34,990 bases of DNA, taken from an uncultured Flavobacteriales bacterium (GTDB lineage Bacteria; Bacteroidota; Bacteroidia; Flavobacteriales_D; Sanyastnellaceae). How positions within the stretch are numbered: the stretch's first letter is position 1; the number at the start of each line of letters is the position of its first letter. Positions 8,128 through 32,471 of this stretch are shown piece after piece. The stretch covers positions 1 through 34,990 of the forward strand of contig CAJXHE010000012.1 of the NCBI GenBank assembly GCA_913051865.1. Direction: 5' to 3'. The position numbers and the translations under genes were made by a program. The notes beneath the pieces are model-generated. The model made no database searches and had not been told where the DNA came from. It worked only from the letters and a program-made list of their open reading frames with translations.

Positions 8128-10655
8128 GAGCATTTTTGCTTGCGATAGCCCTTGTGCTACCGTGTTTTCTTTCTTTAGGTCAATCGCATGATCGGAGTGC
8201 TCTCGAAGTGCTAGATTTAAGTATACCACAAGAATATCGCATAGGAGGTATTACTGTTTTAGGAGCAGAATACACAGATGTGCAGGCCATCAAGTTATTT
8301 AGTGCACTTCAAATTGGCGCGTCAATTACAATTCCAGGTGAGATGCTTGGGGACGCGATCAAGAGTCTTTGGAATCAGGATCTTTTTGCAGATATCAGCA
8401 TCGAGGCAGCTGAACTAAGGGACCGTGATGTATATCTGATCATTCGTGTGAAAGAATTGCCTCGCCTTACAAGATACAGCATTGCAGGAGTGAATAGATC
8501 GGAGCAGGAAACGGTTCGAGGGAAGATTGATTTCACCACGGGCCGGATCGTCAATGAAAACGTCCTGGCAGTCGCTACTAAACGTATTAAAGATCATTAT
8601 CGTGACAAGGGCTTTCTAGACATCGATGTGGATATTGTCCAAGAGGTCGATTCGACGTTTTCAAATGGCACGATTGTGAGAGTGAATATAGACAAGGGAA
8701 CAAAAATTAAGGTAGACCAGATTACGCTTAATGGTATTCATGCGTTTGAGACTGACAAAGTCAAACGTAAAATGAAATCCACCAAAGAAAAGAAGTGGTG
8801 GAGATTTTACAAGTCATCTAAATACATCCCGAAGGATTTCGAAACGGATCAACAGGCGATTATTGCCTTGTATAACAATGAGGGCTATAGAAATGCAAGA
8901 ATTACAAACGATTCCATCTATAGAACTGAGGAAGGACTTGTCGCACTGACACTCGATATCGAAGAGGGAAATCAATTCCGTTTTGGAAATATATCTTTTA
9001 CGGGGAACACAAAATATCGATCCACCCAACTCGATTCAATATTAGGGATACGTAAAGGTGATGTTTACTCTCTCTCACACCTTGAGACGCGTGTGTTTAT
9101 GGATCCAAAGGGAATGGATTTGAGTTCTCTTTACCAAGACGATGGTTACCTCACGTTTCGAGCGATGCCTATCGAACAAAGGGTAGAAAATGATACGATC
9201 GATATTGAGGTGCGAATGATGGAGGGTCAGCAATTTCGAATCGGAAAGATTCTTGTAGAAGGAAATACGAAGACAAACGATCATGTTATTTATCGTGAAA
9301 TTCGAACGCGCCCAGGTGATTTATTCAGTCGTACAGATATCATTAGAACACAGCGTGAGCTTTCTCAATTAAACTACTTTAACCCTGAGGCCTTTGGAAT
9401 CAATCCGATTCAACATCCAGAGACTGGAACAGTGGATATCGAATATAAAGTTGAGGAAAAACCATCGGACCAAATAGAGCTGAGTGGAGGCTGGGGCGGG
9501 GGGCGTGTTGTGGGTTCTCTCGGACTGACCTTCACAAATTTCTCATCCAAGAAAATGTTTAAAAGGGATTCGTGGCGTCCCATTCCTACAGGAGATGGTC
9601 AGAGCGTAAGTATACGTGCTCAGTCAAACGGGCTCTATTTTCAGAGTTACAACATGAGCTTTGTTGAGAGTTGGTTAGGGGGTAAAGAACCCACTTCTCT
9701 CAGTGTAGCTCTGTCGAAATCGGTACAATCAAATGGGCAACCCAAACGTATCGATGGTGAAATTAATGAGTTACGTAATTCCCTTGAAATCATCGGGGTC
9801 AAAATCGGATTGGGGAAAAGGTTGAAAAAGCCAGACGACTGGTTCCTATTCCGCTCCTCACTGTCATACCAAAATTTCAACCTCGATAATTTCGGTTCAT
9901 TCTTCAGCTTCTCCAACGGTAGAGCGAACAACCTTGCCGCGAACATTTCTCTAGGACGAAACTCGATAAGCGACCCGATATATCCAACTTGGGGTTCAAA
10001 TGTAGAGGTAAGTGTTACAGCAACGGTTCCATACAGTATGTTTAGACCAGAGGGCTATTATGAAGGCCTTTCTCTTGAAGAACAATATAAGTGGGTGGAG
10101 TACCACAAATGGAAATTCAAAGCAGAATGGTATACGCCATTGTCACGCAGTGGAGGAGAGAATCCAAGAACGCTGGTGCTTAAAGTTGCTGCCGGGGTGG
10201 GGCTCATAGGTCAGTATGACCGAGCTGTCCCCCTCTCTCCATTTGAAAGATTTTACCTTGGGGGTGTCTTTTTAAGTGGATATACACTGGACGGAAGAGA
10301 AATCATCAACTTGCGCGGATACGATGATCTGTCCTTGACATCTCCCAATGCAAACACGGGCGCTCCTGTCGTTGCCAAGTACTCGGCTGAACTTCGCTAT
10401 CCTTTATCCACGAACCCAAGTGCAACGATCTTCACTCTTGCCTTCCTAGAGGGGGGGCAAACTTGGCAGGACGCACGCGCCTTTAATCCTTTTCAGGTCT
10501 ATAGATCTGCTGGCGTTGGACTGAGAATATTCCTGCCAATGTTCGGTCTTTTGGGACTAGACTATGGTTGGAGACTGGACGATGTTGAGGCAGTCCCAAC
10601 GATGTCGAGAGGTCAATTCCACTTTAGTATGGGAATGAATATGGGTGAACTATAA
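8124..10655 (+). CDS. bamA: Outer-membrane assembly factor BamA (Omp85 family)
   Basis: The core insertase of the beta-barrel assembly machine. The 843-residue protein has a signal peptide (1-19, ending SLGQ), an N-terminal periplasmic part with several POTRA repeats (about residues 35-450; recurring I..I.V.GN(T/R)K and turn patterns), and a C-terminal 16-strand Omp85 barrel from about 470. The barrel keeps the Omp85 loop motif LRGY (about nt 10311-10322), which reaches into the barrel lumen. Length is close to usual. The C-terminal strand does not finish with an aromatic residue but with a few extra residues after FHFSMGM. It is translationally coupled to uppS (ATGA) and followed by two Skp-type chaperones, the expected partners for outer-membrane protein delivery. 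Confidence 0.96.
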   Translation: MRAFLLAIALVLPCFLSLGQSHDRSALEVLDLSIPQEYRIGGITVLGAEYTDVQAIKLFSALQIGASITIPGEMLGDAIKSLWNQDLFADISIEAAELRDRDVYLIIRVKELPRLTRYSIAGVNRSEQETVRGKIDFTTGRIVNENVLAVATKRIKDHYRDKGFLDIDVDIVQEVDSTFSNGTIVRVNIDKGTKIKVDQITLNGIHAFETDKVKRKMKSTKEKKWWRFYKSSKYIPKDFETDQQAIIALYNNEGYRNARITNDSIYRTEEGLVALTLDIEEGNQFRFGNISFTGNTKYRSTQLDSILGIRKGDVYSLSHLETRVFMDPKGMDLSSLYQDDGYLTFRAMPIEQRVENDTIDIEVRMMEGQQFRIGKILVEGNTKTNDHVIYREIRTRPGDLFSRTDIIRTQRELSQLNYFNPEAFGINPIQHPETGTVDIEYKVEEKPSDQIELSGGWGGGRVVGSLGLTFTNFSSKKMFKRDSWRPIPTGDGQSVSIRAQSNGLYFQSYNMSFVESWLGGKEPTSLSVALSKSVQSNGQPKRIDGEINELRNSLEIIGVKIGLGKRLKKPDDWFLFRSSLSYQNFNLDNFGSFFSFSNGRANNLAANISLGRNSISDPIYPTWGSNVEVSVTATVPYSMFRPEGYYEGLSLEEQYKWVEYHKWKFKAEWYTPLSRSGGENPRTLVLKVAAGVGLIGQYDRAVPLSPFERFYLGGVFLSGYTLDGREIINLRGYDDLSLTSPNANTGAPVVAKYSAELRYPLSTNPSATIFTLAFLEGGQTWQDARAFNPFQVYRSAGVGLRIFLPMFGLLGLDYGWRLDDVEAVPTMSRGQFHFSMGMNMGEL

Positions 10656-26594: not shown

Positions 26595-29336
26595 GTGGAT
26601 CCTTTATCATTTTTAAATAATATTGAGCCTAAACAATTGGACGTTTTGTACGCTCAATATCTCAACAATCCAGAATCTGTTGACCGTTCTTGGCGGCTCT
26701 TTTTTGCGGGATTCGATTTGGCAAACACTCATTTCGGTGATGAAGCAGCGAATCCCCAAACCATCAAGGAATTTAGTGTTCTCAATCTCATTCATGGATA
26801 TAGAACACGTGGTCACCTTTTTACGTCTACAAATCCAGTGCGAGAGCGCCGCACTTACACGCCGAATCTTGAGCTTTCGCATTACGATCTAGATGCTTCT
26901 GATTTGGAGACTGTCTTTCAGGCCGGGGGAGAAATTGGTTTGGGTTCAGCAAAGCTTAAGGACATTATTGCCCACCTTGAAGAGACCTACTGCCACAGTA
27001 TAAGTATTGAGTATATGTACATTCGCGAGCCCAAGCGAGTGGATTGGATACGCCAGAACATTGAATTGAATAACCGTAAAAAATTCAATAAAAAAGAGCA
27101 GCTTCATATTCTCAAGAAAATTAGTCAAGCGACTTTATTCGAGGAGTTTCTTCAGAAGAAATTTGTGGGCCAAAAACGTTTTTCACTCGAAGGTGGAGAA
27201 TCTCTAATCCCCGCTTTAGACACCCTTATTGAAAAGGGGACGGAACACGGTGTAAAAGAAGTAGTCATAGGGATGGCGCACAGGGGGAGGTTAAGTACCC
27301 TGGCTCATATTTTAGGAAAGCCTTATATGGATCTTTTCAGTGAGTTTCAGGGCAAGGAATACGCTGGAGACGATGGCTTTGAGGGCGATGTGAAGTATCA
27401 TTTGGGACATTCTAGAACTCAGAAAGCGGATACTGGCGCAGACGTTCACATTACACTTGCCCCAAACCCATCTCACCTTGAAGCGGTTGATCCTGTGGTC
27501 TTAGGAATGTCTCGTGCTTTAATTGATGAACTTGGCGGCGACGAAAATGCAGTGCTGCCTATACTTGTCCATGGAGACGCTGCGATTGCGGGTCAGGGTA
27601 TTGTATACGAAGTGGCACAAATGGCGGGCTTGAAGGGATATCGTACTGGAGGCACAGTTCATATCATCGTCAATAATCAAATTGGTTTTACGACAAACTA
27701 TCTTGATGCACGCACCTCGACGTATTGCACTGACGTGGGGAAGGTGACACAGAGTTTGATCTTTCATGTGAATGCAGATGACCCTGAGGCTGTTGTGCAG
27801 GTAATGAACATCGCGCTATCCTATCGCCAAACGTTCCACAGGGATGTTTTCATCGACTTACTTGGATACCGCAAATACGGTCACAACGAAGGTGATGAGC
27901 CTAAGTTTACTCAGCCTAAGCTCTACAAAGCCATCGCATCGCACCCTTCGCCTTACGAGATGTATTTGTCTCACCTCATCTCCATAGGAACCATTACTTC
28001 TGAAGAAGGGACTGCGCTTAAGCAAAGCCAGATGGACCAAATGGAGGAAGGTTTTGCGATTGCGAAAGAGAAGGATACAAATCAAGTGAAGGATTTCCTC
28101 TCTGGTATTTGGGCTGACTATAGACGCGCTACAGCCGAAGACCTCAACACATCTCAAGATACGAGTTGTCCAGAGAAGAAAATCCGCGCATTAGGGAATA
28201 TAATAAGCATGTTGCCTGAGGGTAAAAAGTTTTTCAGGAAAGTAAATAAGCTTCTCAAGGACAGAAAAAAGATGCTCGACGCTGATCGCCTAGATTGGGG
28301 AATGGCTGAATTACTCGCCTATGCATCCCTCTTGGTTGAAGGCTATCCTGTAAGGATTTCAGGTCAGGATGTAGAGCGTGGAACGTTCTCTCACCGTCAC
28401 GCAGTCCTGAAGACTGAGGACACTGAAGAAGAAGTAATATTGCTTAATAATCTTGAGAAAGGTCAAGCACAGTTGTCAATCTACAATTCCTTGCTTTCTG
28501 AATATGCTGTTTCCGGTTTTGATTTCGGATACGCATTTGCGAGACCTAAATGTTTGACAATTTGGGAGGCTCAATTTGGAGATTTTAACAACGGCGCTCA
28601 AATTATTTGGGATCAATTCCTCAGTGCTGCAGAAGATAAATGGAGGACGATGAATGGACTGACAATCCTTCTTCCTCACGGATATGAAGGAATGGGGTCC
28701 GAGCACAGTTCAGGCCGCTTGGAGCGTTTTTTAACGCTTGCTTCGGGGGACAATATCATTGTGACAAACTGCACAACACCCGCTCAGATGTTTCACCTTC
28801 TGAGAAGACAAGTCTTACGACCATTTCGCAAACCTTTGGTTGCATTTACCCCGAAGAAACTGCTTCGCTATCCGAAGGCTGTATCGACCGTTGCGGAACT
28901 CGCAAAAGGTAAGTTTCATGAAATTCTAGACGATCCCCGCATGTTAAAAGGGTCCGATGCAAAAAAGGTTGATACCGTTGTCTTGTGTTCGGGCAAGATC
29001 TATTACGAACTCTTAGAGCGCTTCGAAGAATCTGAGCAGGATAAGAAACGTACGTCTAATATTGCCGTCATTCGGATTGAACAATTGCACCCCTTCCCTC
29101 AGGATGCTTTACACCTTTTACTTAAACGGTATGGCACTCATCCGAAAGTGGTTTGGCTGCAAGAGGAGCCAAGGAATATGGGGGCTTGGCCGTTTATTTC
29201 AATGCACTATCAGGGAGATATTGAAGAGGCCATCGCTAGACCCGCCAGCGGAACGACTGCAGCGGGCTCACAAGTAATATATGCTCGTAAACATCACGTT
29301 ATCATGGATTCTGTGATGAAATACGCCTGTAAATAA
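26595..29336 (+). CDS. sucA: 2-oxoglutarate dehydrogenase E1 component
   Basis: E1 decarboxylates 2-oxoglutarate on thiamine diphosphate and passes the succinyl group to the lipoyl arm of E2 in the TCA cycle. The 913-residue protein is close to the E. coli length (933). It starts with the E2-binding helix pattern FLNNIEPKQLDVLYAQYLNNP and SWRLFFAGF. It then shows HGYRTRGHL, VVIGMAHRGRLSTLAHILGKP, HLGHSR, the ThDP/Mg site GDAAIAGQGIVYE...NNQIGFTT (about nt 27570-27690), and the C-terminal QLHPFPQDAL and WLQEEPRNMGAW blocks. The start must be GTG at 26595 because an in-frame stop (26583-26585) lies just upstream and no other start codon intervenes. sucB begins nine bases after its stop. Confidence 0.97.
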   Translation: MDPLSFLNNIEPKQLDVLYAQYLNNPESVDRSWRLFFAGFDLANTHFGDEAANPQTIKEFSVLNLIHGYRTRGHLFTSTNPVRERRTYTPNLELSHYDLDASDLETVFQAGGEIGLGSAKLKDIIAHLEETYCHSISIEYMYIREPKRVDWIRQNIELNNRKKFNKKEQLHILKKISQATLFEEFLQKKFVGQKRFSLEGGESLIPALDTLIEKGTEHGVKEVVIGMAHRGRLSTLAHILGKPYMDLFSEFQGKEYAGDDGFEGDVKYHLGHSRTQKADTGADVHITLAPNPSHLEAVDPVVLGMSRALIDELGGDENAVLPILVHGDAAIAGQGIVYEVAQMAGLKGYRTGGTVHIIVNNQIGFTTNYLDARTSTYCTDVGKVTQSLIFHVNADDPEAVVQVMNIALSYRQTFHRDVFIDLLGYRKYGHNEGDEPKFTQPKLYKAIASHPSPYEMYLSHLISIGTITSEEGTALKQSQMDQMEEGFAIAKEKDTNQVKDFLSGIWADYRRATAEDLNTSQDTSCPEKKIRALGNIISMLPEGKKFFRKVNKLLKDRKKMLDADRLDWGMAELLAYASLLVEGYPVRISGQDVERGTFSHRHAVLKTEDTEEEVILLNNLEKGQAQLSIYNSLLSEYAVSGFDFGYAFARPKCLTIWEAQFGDFNNGAQIIWDQFLSAAEDKWRTMNGLTILLPHGYEGMGSEHSSGRLERFLTLASGDNIIVTNCTTPAQMFHLLRRQVLRPFRKPLVAFTPKKLLRYPKAVSTVAELAKGKFHEILDDPRMLKGSDAKKVDTVVLCSGKIYYELLERFEESEQDKKRTSNIAVIRIEQLHPFPQDALHLLLKRYGTHPKVVWLQEEPRNMGAWPFISMHYQGDIEEAIARPASGTTAAGSQVIYARKHHVIMDSVMKYACK

Positions 29337-29345
29337 TTAAGAATC

Positions 29346-30638
29346 ATGCCCATACTTGAAATGAAAGTACCCAGTCCGGGTGAGAGTATATCAGAAGTGG
29401 AAATTGCTGCTTGGCTCGTAAACGATGGTGACTATGTTGAGAAGGATCAGCCCATTGCTGAAGTCGATTCAGACAAAGCAACGCTTGAGCTTCCAGCTGA
29501 AATGGCTGGGGTGATTACATTAAAAGTTGAAGAAGGAGATGTTGTCCCCGTAGGAGATGTGTGTTGTCTCATTGACACTGATGCAAAGCGTCCAGCCGGA
29601 ATGGAAAAACCTGCAGAGGCACCCGTACCTTCGACACCTGTAGAGGTACCTGTACAGGTGACACCAACAGTCATCCCTTCTGCTAAATCTCCAGATCAGC
29701 CTGCTGTTGCTTCAGTTTCTCAAAAAAGCCATGCAGAGGGCATTCCATCTCCCGCAGCTAAAAAGATGATGGCTGACAAAGGAATCTCTTCAGGTTCAAT
29801 AACAGGATCCGGTAGAGATGGAAGGGTCCTTAAACAAGATGTTATTTCAGCTCTTGCAGCAGGATTTGATCCTTCATCTGCCTCTGCTCAAGGTGGATGG
29901 ACAGGGTCTCGGGATGTCCGAACTGAACGCATGTCAATGTTGAGACGGAAGGTGGCTGAACGACTCGTTGGTGTGAAAAATGAGACTGCCATGCTGACCA
30001 CTTTTAATGAAGTGGACATGAAGCCCATTATGGACCTTAGGGCCAAATACAAGATTAAGTTTAAAGAAGAGAAAGGCGTGGGTCTGGGTTTTATGGGGTT
30101 TTTCACAAAAGCTGTGACAACCGCTCTAGCGGCCTATCCAGGCGTCAATGCGATGATAGATGGAAAGGAAGTGCAATACCATGACTATGTTGATGTGTGT
30201 ATTGCGGTAAGCTCTCCCAAAGGGTTAATGGTTCCTGTTGTAAGGAATGCTGAAGCCATGTCTATTGCAGAAATTGAGGGAGAAATTAAGCGCCTTGCTA
30301 TTAGAGCGAGAGATGGTGTACTTACCGTAGACGAAATGCAAGGAGGGACGTTTACCATCACCAACGGCGGTGTCTTTGGCTCAATGTTGTCGACACCCAT
30401 TATCAACCCGCCACAAAGTGCGATCTTGGGAATGCACAATATTGTTGAGCGTCCAGTGGCCATCAATGGGCAAGTTGTGGTGCGACCGATCATGTACGTA
30501 GCGCTCAGTTATGACCACCGTATTGTAGATGGGAAAGAGAGCGTCAGCTTTTTATATCTGGTGAAAGAACTCCTTGAAAATCCAGAGAGAATGTTATTTG
30601 GCGGAAAACAGCCAGAGGAAGTACTTCTGGGACTGTAA
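29346..30638 (+). CDS. sucB: 2-oxoglutarate dehydrogenase E2 (dihydrolipoyl succinyltransferase)
   Basis: E2 forms the core of the 2-oxoglutarate dehydrogenase complex and transfers succinyl from its lipoyl arm to CoA. The 430-residue protein has a lipoyl domain (1-77) with K44 in [12 protein letters not shown], a Pro/Ala/Val-rich linker (about 85-125), and a peripheral subunit-binding domain (about 133-168, [10 protein letters not shown]...[13 protein letters not shown]). The catalytic domain (from about 195) has [24 protein letters not shown] and the active-site SYDHRIVDG with catalytic His and Asp. The order sucA-sucB is standard, and E3 is encoded at 20325-21728 on the other strand. It converges on the rhodanese gene with four bases between stops. 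Confidence 0.97.
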
Positions 30639-30642
30639 GTTT

Positions 30643-31140
30643 TTAGTATCTAGGTAACTCAGGCTGGATAGCTTCTTGCCAACCAAGGATGCCACCAGTC
30701 AAGTTGATGAGATTGGTATATCCATGGACGTCTTCAAGTTCTCGAATGGCAGTGGCACTTCTAACCCCTGAACGACATTGTACAACTACGGGGATGTCTT
30801 TCGGAATTCTATTCGTACTCTCTAATACCGTTCCAAGCGGAATCAGCTCTCCACCAATCTCGACAATTCCATATTCATAAGGTTCTCTGACATCAATGAG
30901 AAGATGTTTTACGCCCTCTTTACGCCATTGATCTAATTTCTGAACATTCATCTCAGCAACCTCTCTTTGTTTCTCGGATGTTGGGACTATTCCACAAAAC
31001 TGTTCATAGTTGATGAGTTCAGTTTGAGTGGGATGTTCTCCGTTAAGTGGATTGTTTTTGTTTTTTTTGACTTTCAGAATGCGGGTGGAAAACACAGTGG
31101 CATCAAACAAAAACAAACGTCCACTTAGCGTATCACCCAC
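30643..31140 (-). CDS. Rhodanese-domain protein with a MoeB/MoeZ-type C-terminal tail (truncated MoeZ-like)
   Basis: A 165-residue protein. Residues about 63-165 are a rhodanese domain: LLIDVREPYEY, IPLG, the active-site loop QCRSGVRSA with catalytic C122, and the ending GGILGWQEAIQPELPRY. Residues 1-52 are not typical of stand-alone rhodaneses. GDTLSGRLFLFDA and TELINYEQFCGIV match the segment that joins the ThiF/MoeB adenylating domain to the rhodanese in MoeZ/MOCS3-type proteins, which load sulfur onto ubiquitin-like sulfur carriers. The ATP-binding adenylating domain itself (about 240 residues) is absent. The CxxC zinc pair expected in many homologues reads NPLN. The GTG at 31140 is the only start: an in-frame stop lies 11 codons upstream, inside rodA. 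It follows rodA by five bases. It may be a functional sulfurtransferase or a remnant. Confidence 0.8.
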   Translation of the reverse strand: MGDTLSGRLFLFDATVFSTRILKVKKNKNNPLNGEHPTQTELINYEQFCGIVPTSEKQREVAEMNVQKLDQWRKEGVKHLLIDVREPYEYGIVEIGGELIPLGTVLESTNRIPKDIPVVVQCRSGVRSATAIRELEDVHGYTNLINLTGGILGWQEAIQPELPRY

Positions 31141-31145
31141 TAAAT

Positions 31146-32471
31146 TTATCTCAGTATTCGGAATCGCTCTCCGTCAAGCCTGATAAGGACACCAATTAAG
31201 AACGTGAATCCAATTAACGACGAGCCGCCGTAACTGAAAAAAGGCAATGGAATTCCAATCACGGGTGCAAGCCCTAATACCATTCCAACATTAACGAATA
31301 AGTGCATGAAGAAAATACTGGCGACACCATAAGCGTATATCCGCGTGAAATTTGATCTTTGCCGTTCTGCTATAACGATTACTCTTAATATTAAGAGTGT
31401 GAATAGCATTATGACAAAGACGCTGCCCGCAAACCCCCACTCTTCTCCCACAGTACAAAATATAAAGTCAGTTTCTTGTTCAGGAACGAAGCTGTAAGCA
31501 GTCATGGGTCCATGCATCCATCCCTTGCCCGAAAAACCACCGCTTCCTATTGCTGCTTTTGCATGACGGATGTTATAATCGGCATCTGGATTATTTACAT
31601 CTATCCCAAACAGGACATGGATTCTATCTCTTTGGTGTGATTTAAGGACGGTCTCCATGCCGAGATGAAGCCCGATTGAAACCATCAGACCAGCAACAAT
31701 ACTTACAATGCCCCACCTGGTTGTCATTTTTCGTTTTCTTGGAACGGTCAAATATTTTGTGAGAACAACAACGCCAATTCCAATTGCAATCCATGCAATC
31801 CAAAACACACCTATCCCTGATTCTATTCCGAAGAAAGGATAGTGTACGGTTGTCGCACCTATTAGAATCGTAGCGATGGCAATGAGCAAGGCGCCAAATC
31901 CAATAATAAGAACGTTGCCACTTAACCCCTCTCTGTAAAGGACAAATACAAATCCCGCAAAGACGAGAACGGTTCCCGCATCGGGTTGGAGCAGAATTAG
32001 TCCTGCTGGGATCGCCACAATTAGAGATGACAGAAAGCGAACTTTAAGACTTCGCCACTTGGTCGCATCACGAGACAGATACCAAGCCAGAAGAAGTGCG
32101 GTTGTGGGTTTGGCAAATTCGCTGGGTTGTAAACTCATTCCACCAAACCCAAACCAGGATCGAGCGCCTCCGATCTTTTTACCCACAATCAAGACAGCCA
32201 CAAGTAGCACGAGCGTTAAGATGTATTGCAGAACAGATGTTCTGATGAAAAACTCACTTTCAATATTGAGAATTAAAAACCCTAGAAACGAACAGATCAA
32301 AATCCACATCAGTTGCTTGCCTCCTTTTCCACCCCAATCAAACCATTCTGAGATTTCGAGATTTGAGGTTGCACTCACAACGTTTAGTAATCCGAAAAAC
32401 ATCAGAACCCCCACGAGAATTACCAGGGACCAATCGATGTTTTTATATATGGAGGATTCTCTAAGTGTCAT
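31146..32471 (-). CDS. rodA: Rod-shape-determining peptidoglycan glycosyltransferase RodA (SEDS family)
   Basis: RodA polymerises lipid II into glycan strands during side-wall growth, working with PBP2 and the Mre proteins. The 441-residue protein has about ten membrane helices and the SEDS signatures: FGFGGMSLQPSEFAKP after the fourth helix, LQPDAGTVLVF, the large extracytoplasmic loop with IRHAKAAIGSGGFSGKGW and FVPEQETDFIFCTVGEEWGF (including the catalytic-type Asp), and the final PVIGIPLPFFSYGGSSL. Its ATG overlaps the PBP2 stop by four bases (ATGA, 32468-32471), in keeping with a tightly coupled pair. It is RodA rather than FtsW by its position in the mre/mrd operon. Confidence 0.96.
   Translation of the reverse strand: MTLRESSIYKNIDWSLVILVGVLMFFGLLNVVSATSNLEISEWFDWGGKGGKQLMWILICSFLGFLILNIESEFFIRTSVLQYILTLVLLVAVLIVGKKIGGARSWFGFGGMSLQPSEFAKPTTALLLAWYLSRDATKWRSLKVRFLSSLIVAIPAGLILLQPDAGTVLVFAGFVFVLYREGLSGNVLIIGFGALLIAIATILIGATTVHYPFFGIESGIGVFWIAWIAIGIGVVVLTKYLTVPRKRKMTTRWGIVSIVAGLMVSIGLHLGMETVLKSHQRDRIHVLFGIDVNNPDADYNIRHAKAAIGSGGFSGKGWMHGPMTAYSFVPEQETDFIFCTVGEEWGFAGSVFVIMLFTLLILRVIVIAERQRSNFTRIYAYGVASIFFMHLFVNVGMVLGLAPVIGIPLPFFSYGGSSLIGFTFLIGVLIRLDGERFRILR

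Follow-up and report, generated by a model that had tools for sequence, protein, structure and literature searches.

In the cysteine route of mycobacteria that depends on CysO, as given in the account of PMC3227635, MoeZR sulfurates CysO, CysM adds O-phosphoserine and Mec+ frees cysteine. The same account describes two peculiarities of MoeZ in the region of the zinc pairs: the second CxxC is missing and the first is replaced by NYRD. The window analysed here, a stretch of 34,990 nucleotides, is contig C12 of a draft genome of 1.97 Mb (119 contigs, 82% complete), and carries behind rodA a short open reading frame that resembles one end of MoeZ. The window genome is labelled G000, the other members of its genus G001 to G013, and L100 denotes the locus of G013.

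The frame lies on the minus strand (31140..30643), opens with GTG at 31140, closes with a TAA stop at 30645-30643 and encodes 165 residues. The NCBIfam MoeZ model NF005902 aligns with residues 1-165, from model position 231 to 392 of 392 (E 9.8e-32), with a score of 110 bits that is far under the 647-bit full-length cut-off of the model. Pfam gave Rhodanese (PF00581) as the sole match, at residues 68-157, and no ThiF at E values up to 1. The frame shares 95% identity with the tail of the full-length MoeZ of G007 and 92% with that of G013, and thus is not a chance reading. On these alignments it is the C-terminal 165 residues of MoeZ, comprising the end of the ThiF domain, the linker and the rhodanese. 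The N-terminal ThiF/MoeB ATP-binding domain, where the GxGGLG motif and the adenylation site reside, is absent, codons 225-389 alone remaining; the C-terminal rhodanese with its catalytic Cys is present. The initial annotation had described the frame as a MoeZ/MOCS3-type tail deprived of its ATP-binding domain, with MoeZ sequence at the N-terminus and an intact rhodanese Cys, and all three points are borne out, the model match starting at residue 1. The features of the locus are as follows.

31146..32471, minus strand: rodA, with its stop codon at 31148-31146, 5 nt upstream of the remnant GTG.
31133..31140, minus strand: deletion junction, a single copy of the 8-bp direct repeat GTGGGTGA, placed by comparison with G013.
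30643..31140, minus strand: what remains of moeZ, namely codons 225-389 and the stop of an ancestral gene of 389 codons.
31054..31140, minus strand: leftover of the ThiF (adenylylating) domain, 29 residues equal to MoeZ 225-253 (Pfam ThiF spans 16-253 in G013), below ThiF detection in the fragment.
30949..30951, minus strand: internal ATG (Met64) just N-terminal of the rhodanese domain and preceded by AGAGAGG, as read from the sequence.
30670..30939, minus strand: rhodanese domain, residues 68-157 (PF00581, E 4.5e-10).
30775..30777, minus strand: rhodanese active-site Cys122 in the loop CRSGVR, Cys in 37/37 aligned tails.
29346..30638, plus strand: presumably sucB (2-oxo acid dehydrogenase E2), a name given on the basis of its sequence; the convergent neighbour on the far side, and a neighbour in relatives too.

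The GTG at 31140 is the first possible start of the remnant; read against the relatives, this apparent start is the native Val225 codon, within the repeat. The ATG at Met64, with AGAGAGG before it, could provide an alternative translation start. RNA folding at the junction gave nothing (z -0.22).

The origin of the frame becomes apparent from relatives in which the locus is intact. The gene order there is rodA, a CysM-like synthase, a JAMM peptidase (Mec+-like), a ThiS-fold carrier, MoeZ and sucB. The full order, with the four homologues of the CysO set together, was found on single contigs in G013, G004 and G005 within the genus and in G015 and G022 from other genera; in G022 moeZ and sucB lie about 3.8 kb apart. 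The contigs of G007, G003 and G010 break inside the locus, and their pieces agree with this order. In G013 the CysM-like protein is a PLP-dependent synthase of 313 aa, and the peptidase (JAMM/Prok-JAB, 142 aa) has an HxH...S..D motif, which we take to be that of JAMM enzymes. The carrier is a ThiS-fold protein of 92 aa with the C-terminus IAGGSK, and MoeZ has 389 aa with ThiF at 16-253 and rhodanese at 291-381, sucB following on the opposite strand. The NCBIfam scores of the intact-locus proteins are mostly under the curated cut-offs and the protein names therefore rest on domains and gene order. In a PF02597 search the six MoeZ-bearing genomes of the genus each had one carrier and the remaining eight of the 14 had none; MoeZ thus has no other visible carrier partner here. 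The carriers of the six genus members (L100 6060-6338; counterparts in L101, L102, L105, L108 and L109) end in GGSK, two residues beyond the GG. In the carriers of two outgroup genomes (L116, L117) the reading extends past the GG, the position of the stop lying outside this reading. The carrier would need trimming by a peptidase, perhaps the adjacent JAMM protein, before adenylation. From families and gene order, the intact set probably operates as the CysO cysteine route does in mycobacteria: MoeZ would adenylate the C-terminal Gly of the carrier, its rhodanese would pass on sulfur to give a thiocarboxylate, CysM would build cysteine on the carrier thiocarboxylate and the JAMM peptidase would release it.

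Comparison with G013 locates the change. The window is 90% identical to G013 from its right end to 31133 and 89% identical over 29004-31141, and the alignment jumps from L100 4443 to 7019. G013 has two copies of GTGGGTGA, one (L100 4436) lying 5 nt past the stop codon of rodA and the other (L100 7020) at codon 225 of MoeZ. The window has one copy, at the same spacing of 5 nt from the rodA stop. The stretch missing between the copies, as measured in G013, is 2,584 bp. Judged against the relatives, one deletion between the 8-bp direct repeats almost certainly made the junction of rodA with the MoeZ tail. Slippage or short-homology recombination between the GTGGGTGA copies would account for the event, which took out cysM, the JAMM peptidase gene, the carrier gene and MoeZ codons 1-224. 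A literature search on short-homology deletions found nothing relevant.

Searches of the window genome, an 82%-complete draft in which gene absences are not certain, found no full MoeZ or other MoeZ-type ThiF elsewhere, no JAMM peptidase, no carrier (PF02597 search included) and no CysM orthologue, the nearest protein being a 37%-identical PLP enzyme. As regards the CysO pathway, the window genome thus has a truncated MoeZ, with carrier, JAMM and CysM not found in the 82%-complete draft. A PLP enzyme on its contig C8 belongs to the cysteine synthase/cystathionine synthase/cysteate synthase superfamily, with the listed NCBIfam matches all under the curated cut-off. Contig C64 (L001 863-1966) encodes a 367-aa protein with a strong ThiF-family match that covers Pfam positions 3-139 only; similar partial ThiF matches over the cut-off were found in G001, G004, G005, G009, G010, G011 and G013. 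This protein was rejected as MoeZ because the ThiF match is partial and has counterparts in relatives that also have MoeZ. A second ThiF match, on contig C45, was rejected because it is below the family cut-off. The serine acetyltransferase model TIGR01172 gave matches in 14/14 genus genomes, 0/14 of them over the cut-off. Contig C10 of the window genome (L143 1341-1658) encodes a further rhodanese, a single-domain protein of 105 aa. In NCBIfam it is matched best by the rhodanese end of MoeZ (E 1.4e-15), and the end of its frame overlaps the next frame by 4 nt.

Two readings would make the junction something other than a deletion. The draft could falsely join rodA to the MoeZ tail, the real genome having an intact set; the source is indeed fragmented (119 contigs, 82% complete), and an artefact has to be considered. 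However, the junction shares 8 bp only, and a shared sequence of this length is too short to mislead an assembler. The rest of the assembly did not yield the missing genes, and a comparable deletion occupies this place in G001 and G011, making a false join highly improbable. The initial annotation had offered a partial duplication, half of a split gene or a MoeZ tail inserted directly behind rodA, the one point for these being the look of the fragment itself. We regard this group of explanations, a foreign origin of the tail included, as barely conceivable. No full-length second copy and no missing half turned up in the assembly (82% complete), nor did the carrier and the JAMM peptidase. The relatives have three genes between rodA and moeZ, so that it was the deletion of 2.6 kb, not an insertion, which brought the two together. 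The fragment is the inherited tail in its ancestral position by sucB, about as similar to the relatives as its neighbours are.

The distribution of the locus fits into a wider pattern of loss. Within the genus (n = 14, window genome included) a full 389-residue MoeZ was found in six genomes (G003, G004, G005, G007, G010 and G013); the two outgroup genomes whose context was read (G015 and G022) also have the full-length protein. The window genome is the one among the 14 with a 165-residue MoeZ tail. G001 (L103 4672-4743) and G011 (L104 4409-4480) have 24-codon MoeZ scraps right behind rodA, the junction consisting of rodA, a few bases and then MoeZ from about codon 365. The two agree in spacing and are similar in sequence, which suggests a single deletion common to both, larger than that of the window. 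G002, G006, G008 and G009 show nothing recognisable between rodA and sucB. In G012 a divergent CysM-like gene (L113 4316-5221, 52-53% identical) sits alone between rodA and sucB; peptidase, carrier and MoeZ were not found in this genome, which may represent a different partial loss, or a replacement. A search for MoeZ remnants in the five stretches of G002, G006, G008, G009 and G012 gave none above chance (lowest E 0.049, with a CysM query). JAMM was found in 5/14 genus genomes; the contigs of G010 break between CysM and the carrier, and its lack of JAMM is probably an assembly gap. Since the set of CysM, JAMM, carrier and MoeZ has gone differently in the window genome, in G001/G011, in G002/G006/G008/G009 and in G012, it has been lost repeatedly here.

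Across the family, 46 of 114 genomes have a MoeZ match at E 1e-25 or better, a threshold that short scraps like the ones in G001 and G011 do not reach. At this threshold a match that begins at the end of ThiF and extends to the C-terminus (222-389) is confined, among the 114, to the window genome; G104 has a match at the rhodanese end only (287-384, 51% identity). Relatives of the tail were also collected from 39 loci on named contigs, labelled mostly Bacteroidetes, Flavobacteriales or Saprospiraceae. At least 194 in-frame residues lie upstream of the matched tail in 37 of the 39, the two exceptions being L017, at a contig end, and L039, a single-domain rhodanese of Sphingobacterium.

At the position of the second zinc pair the remnant itself reads NPLN. 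Among eight longer MoeZ proteins checked, none has CxxC, seven have NPLN and NYRD is present in every one; the latter site (residue 180) falls in the deleted part, and the remnant shows the NPLN of the second site. The idea that the CxxC loss marks degeneration was therefore rejected, the trait being one described for MoeZ in the account of PMC3227635. By this comparison the missing zinc CxxC is a trait of the MoeZ subfamily, not decay; the initial annotation had read NPLN correctly, but the CxxC loss as a special feature is not borne out. Tails were aligned from 32 of the 39 loci together with G000, G007, G013, G015 and G022 (n = 37), leaving out L003 (= G007:C75), L004 (= G013:C191) and the distant or partial L036-L039 and L041. 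Six residues of the remnant are unique relative to G007 and G013, and five of these occur in other MoeZ tails. Asn65 is the sole residue unseen elsewhere, its place being taken by Ser or Thr in the 36 other tails.

The remnant has no stops and no frameshifts. Its dN/dS over the tail is 0.056 between G000 and G007 and 0.099 between G000 and G013, with 0.086 between G007 and G013, both of which have full-length MoeZ. Relative to G007 and G013, 28 substitutions are unique to G000 (21 synonymous and 7 nonsynonymous by site), where the neutral expectation is 7.9 synonymous, 19.1 nonsynonymous and 1.0 stop. None of 2000 neutral simulations, run under a simple model with a transition weight set by us, had so few nonsynonymous changes. 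The remnant shows no sign of relaxed constraint, and the data do not show decay. We note that the G000 branch includes time before the deletion, and a recent deletion therefore fits as well as continued use; part or most of the branch may predate the event.

The trees bear on this age. The protein tree of RodA, PBP2 and SucB groups G000 with G001/G011 (67%), a grouping compatible with a deletion that is older and shared and with a remnant kept for a long time; the nucleotide tree places G000 with G013/G007 (63%). Counts of two-against-three sites over 22,119 shared columns (a window-anchored alignment from window position 9301 on, the moeZ remnant being left out of counts and trees) gave 328 for G001+G011, 214 for G000+G013, 156 for G007+G013 and 39-92 for the seven other pairs. 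The whole-stretch tree has G000+G013 at 65%, and its seven sub-blocks disagree. Such conflicting blocks, observed over the approximately 22 kb of columns that window 9301-34990 shares with G001, G007, G011 and G013, suggest recombination or short internal branches among the five closest genomes. With the trees in conflict, the G000 deletion may be separate from that of G001/G011 or may have been enlarged there; the different junctions make two events the simpler reading.

We consider the remnant to be the residue of a complete moeZ after one repeat-mediated deletion, and probably a relic early in decay. The comparison with relatives shows the deletion itself; the loss of function we infer. With what was found in the window genome (no ATP-binding domain, carrier or peptidase detected), the carrier chemistry would be unable to run, and the remnant, if translated, would be a rhodanese that lacks its normal acceptor and bears an N-terminal stub of no use. 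That the frame is open and unrelaxed means either that the deletion is recent or that the rhodanese is still used, the former being likelier. In the latter case the deletion would have made a stand-alone rhodanese, still expressed by translational coupling to rodA through the GTG 5 nt after its stop, or from Met64, and acting as a thiosulfate or persulfide sulfurtransferase on other acceptors. The open frame and intact active-site loop are consistent with this, as are the low nonsynonymous rate over the branch and the residues, most of which fall within what other MoeZ tails show. According to the account in PMC3227635, the full-length MoeZR of mycobacteria acts in vitro as a thiosulfate sulfurtransferase, and we infer that the rhodanese part may keep such activity without ThiF. 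However, the same substitution counts are accounted for by purifying selection that acted before the deletion, the genome already has the other stand-alone rhodanese of contig C10 (105 aa), the MoeZ rhodanese has gone in G001/G011, and at E 1e-25 no other of the 114 family genomes has a match from the end of ThiF to the C-terminus. Continued use is, on balance, rather unlikely, and the evolved stand-alone sulfurtransferase that the initial annotation had entertained is the less likely reading. It is likewise unlikely that we see, soon after the event, a rhodanese freed from a two-domain E1-like enzyme and under purifying selection behind rodA after loss of the carrier pathway; if the remnant were expressed, it would offer a clear example of deletion setting a domain free.

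The early relic that we favour explains an odd-looking frame as a deletion scar and cautions against labelling it MoeZ or a novel family of sulfurtransferases. A further point is the CysO-type set that members of this Bacteroidota family have behind rodA and that a single genus has lost by more than one route; the 165-codon and 24-codon remnants would be intermediates of such loss. Among known systems the remnant is closest to MoeZ/MoeZR (NF005902, NF005646; the mycobacterial CysO-activating enzyme), sharing the C-terminal 165 residues, the rhodanese Cys and a tail without CxxC, with NYRD in the longer protein of relatives. It differs in lacking codons 1-224, the ATP-binding part of ThiF, and in the absence of a detected carrier in the assembly. 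A literature search on MOCS3-RLD found no papers. With single-domain rhodaneses of the GlpE/PspE type it shares a catalytic rhodanese domain and the CRSGxR loop, but it has about 60 extra N-terminal residues that are MoeZ sequence, its nearest relatives are MoeZ tails and its origin is truncation, which sets it outside that class. The intact relatives encode one homologue each of the Mycobacterium tuberculosis CysO, Mec+, CysM and MoeZ proteins, namely a ThiS-fold carrier with GG near its end, a JAMM peptidase, a PLP synthase and MoeZ. Unlike the M. tuberculosis route, in these Bacteroidota the four genes sit together behind rodA and, in six genus members, two residues follow the carrier GG; the substrate of the CysM-like enzyme is predicted only, and the window genome has lost the set except for the MoeZ tail. 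The case is one of ordinary gene loss seen at an early stage, in which a deletion has scarred a known gene belonging to a gene set of a known kind.
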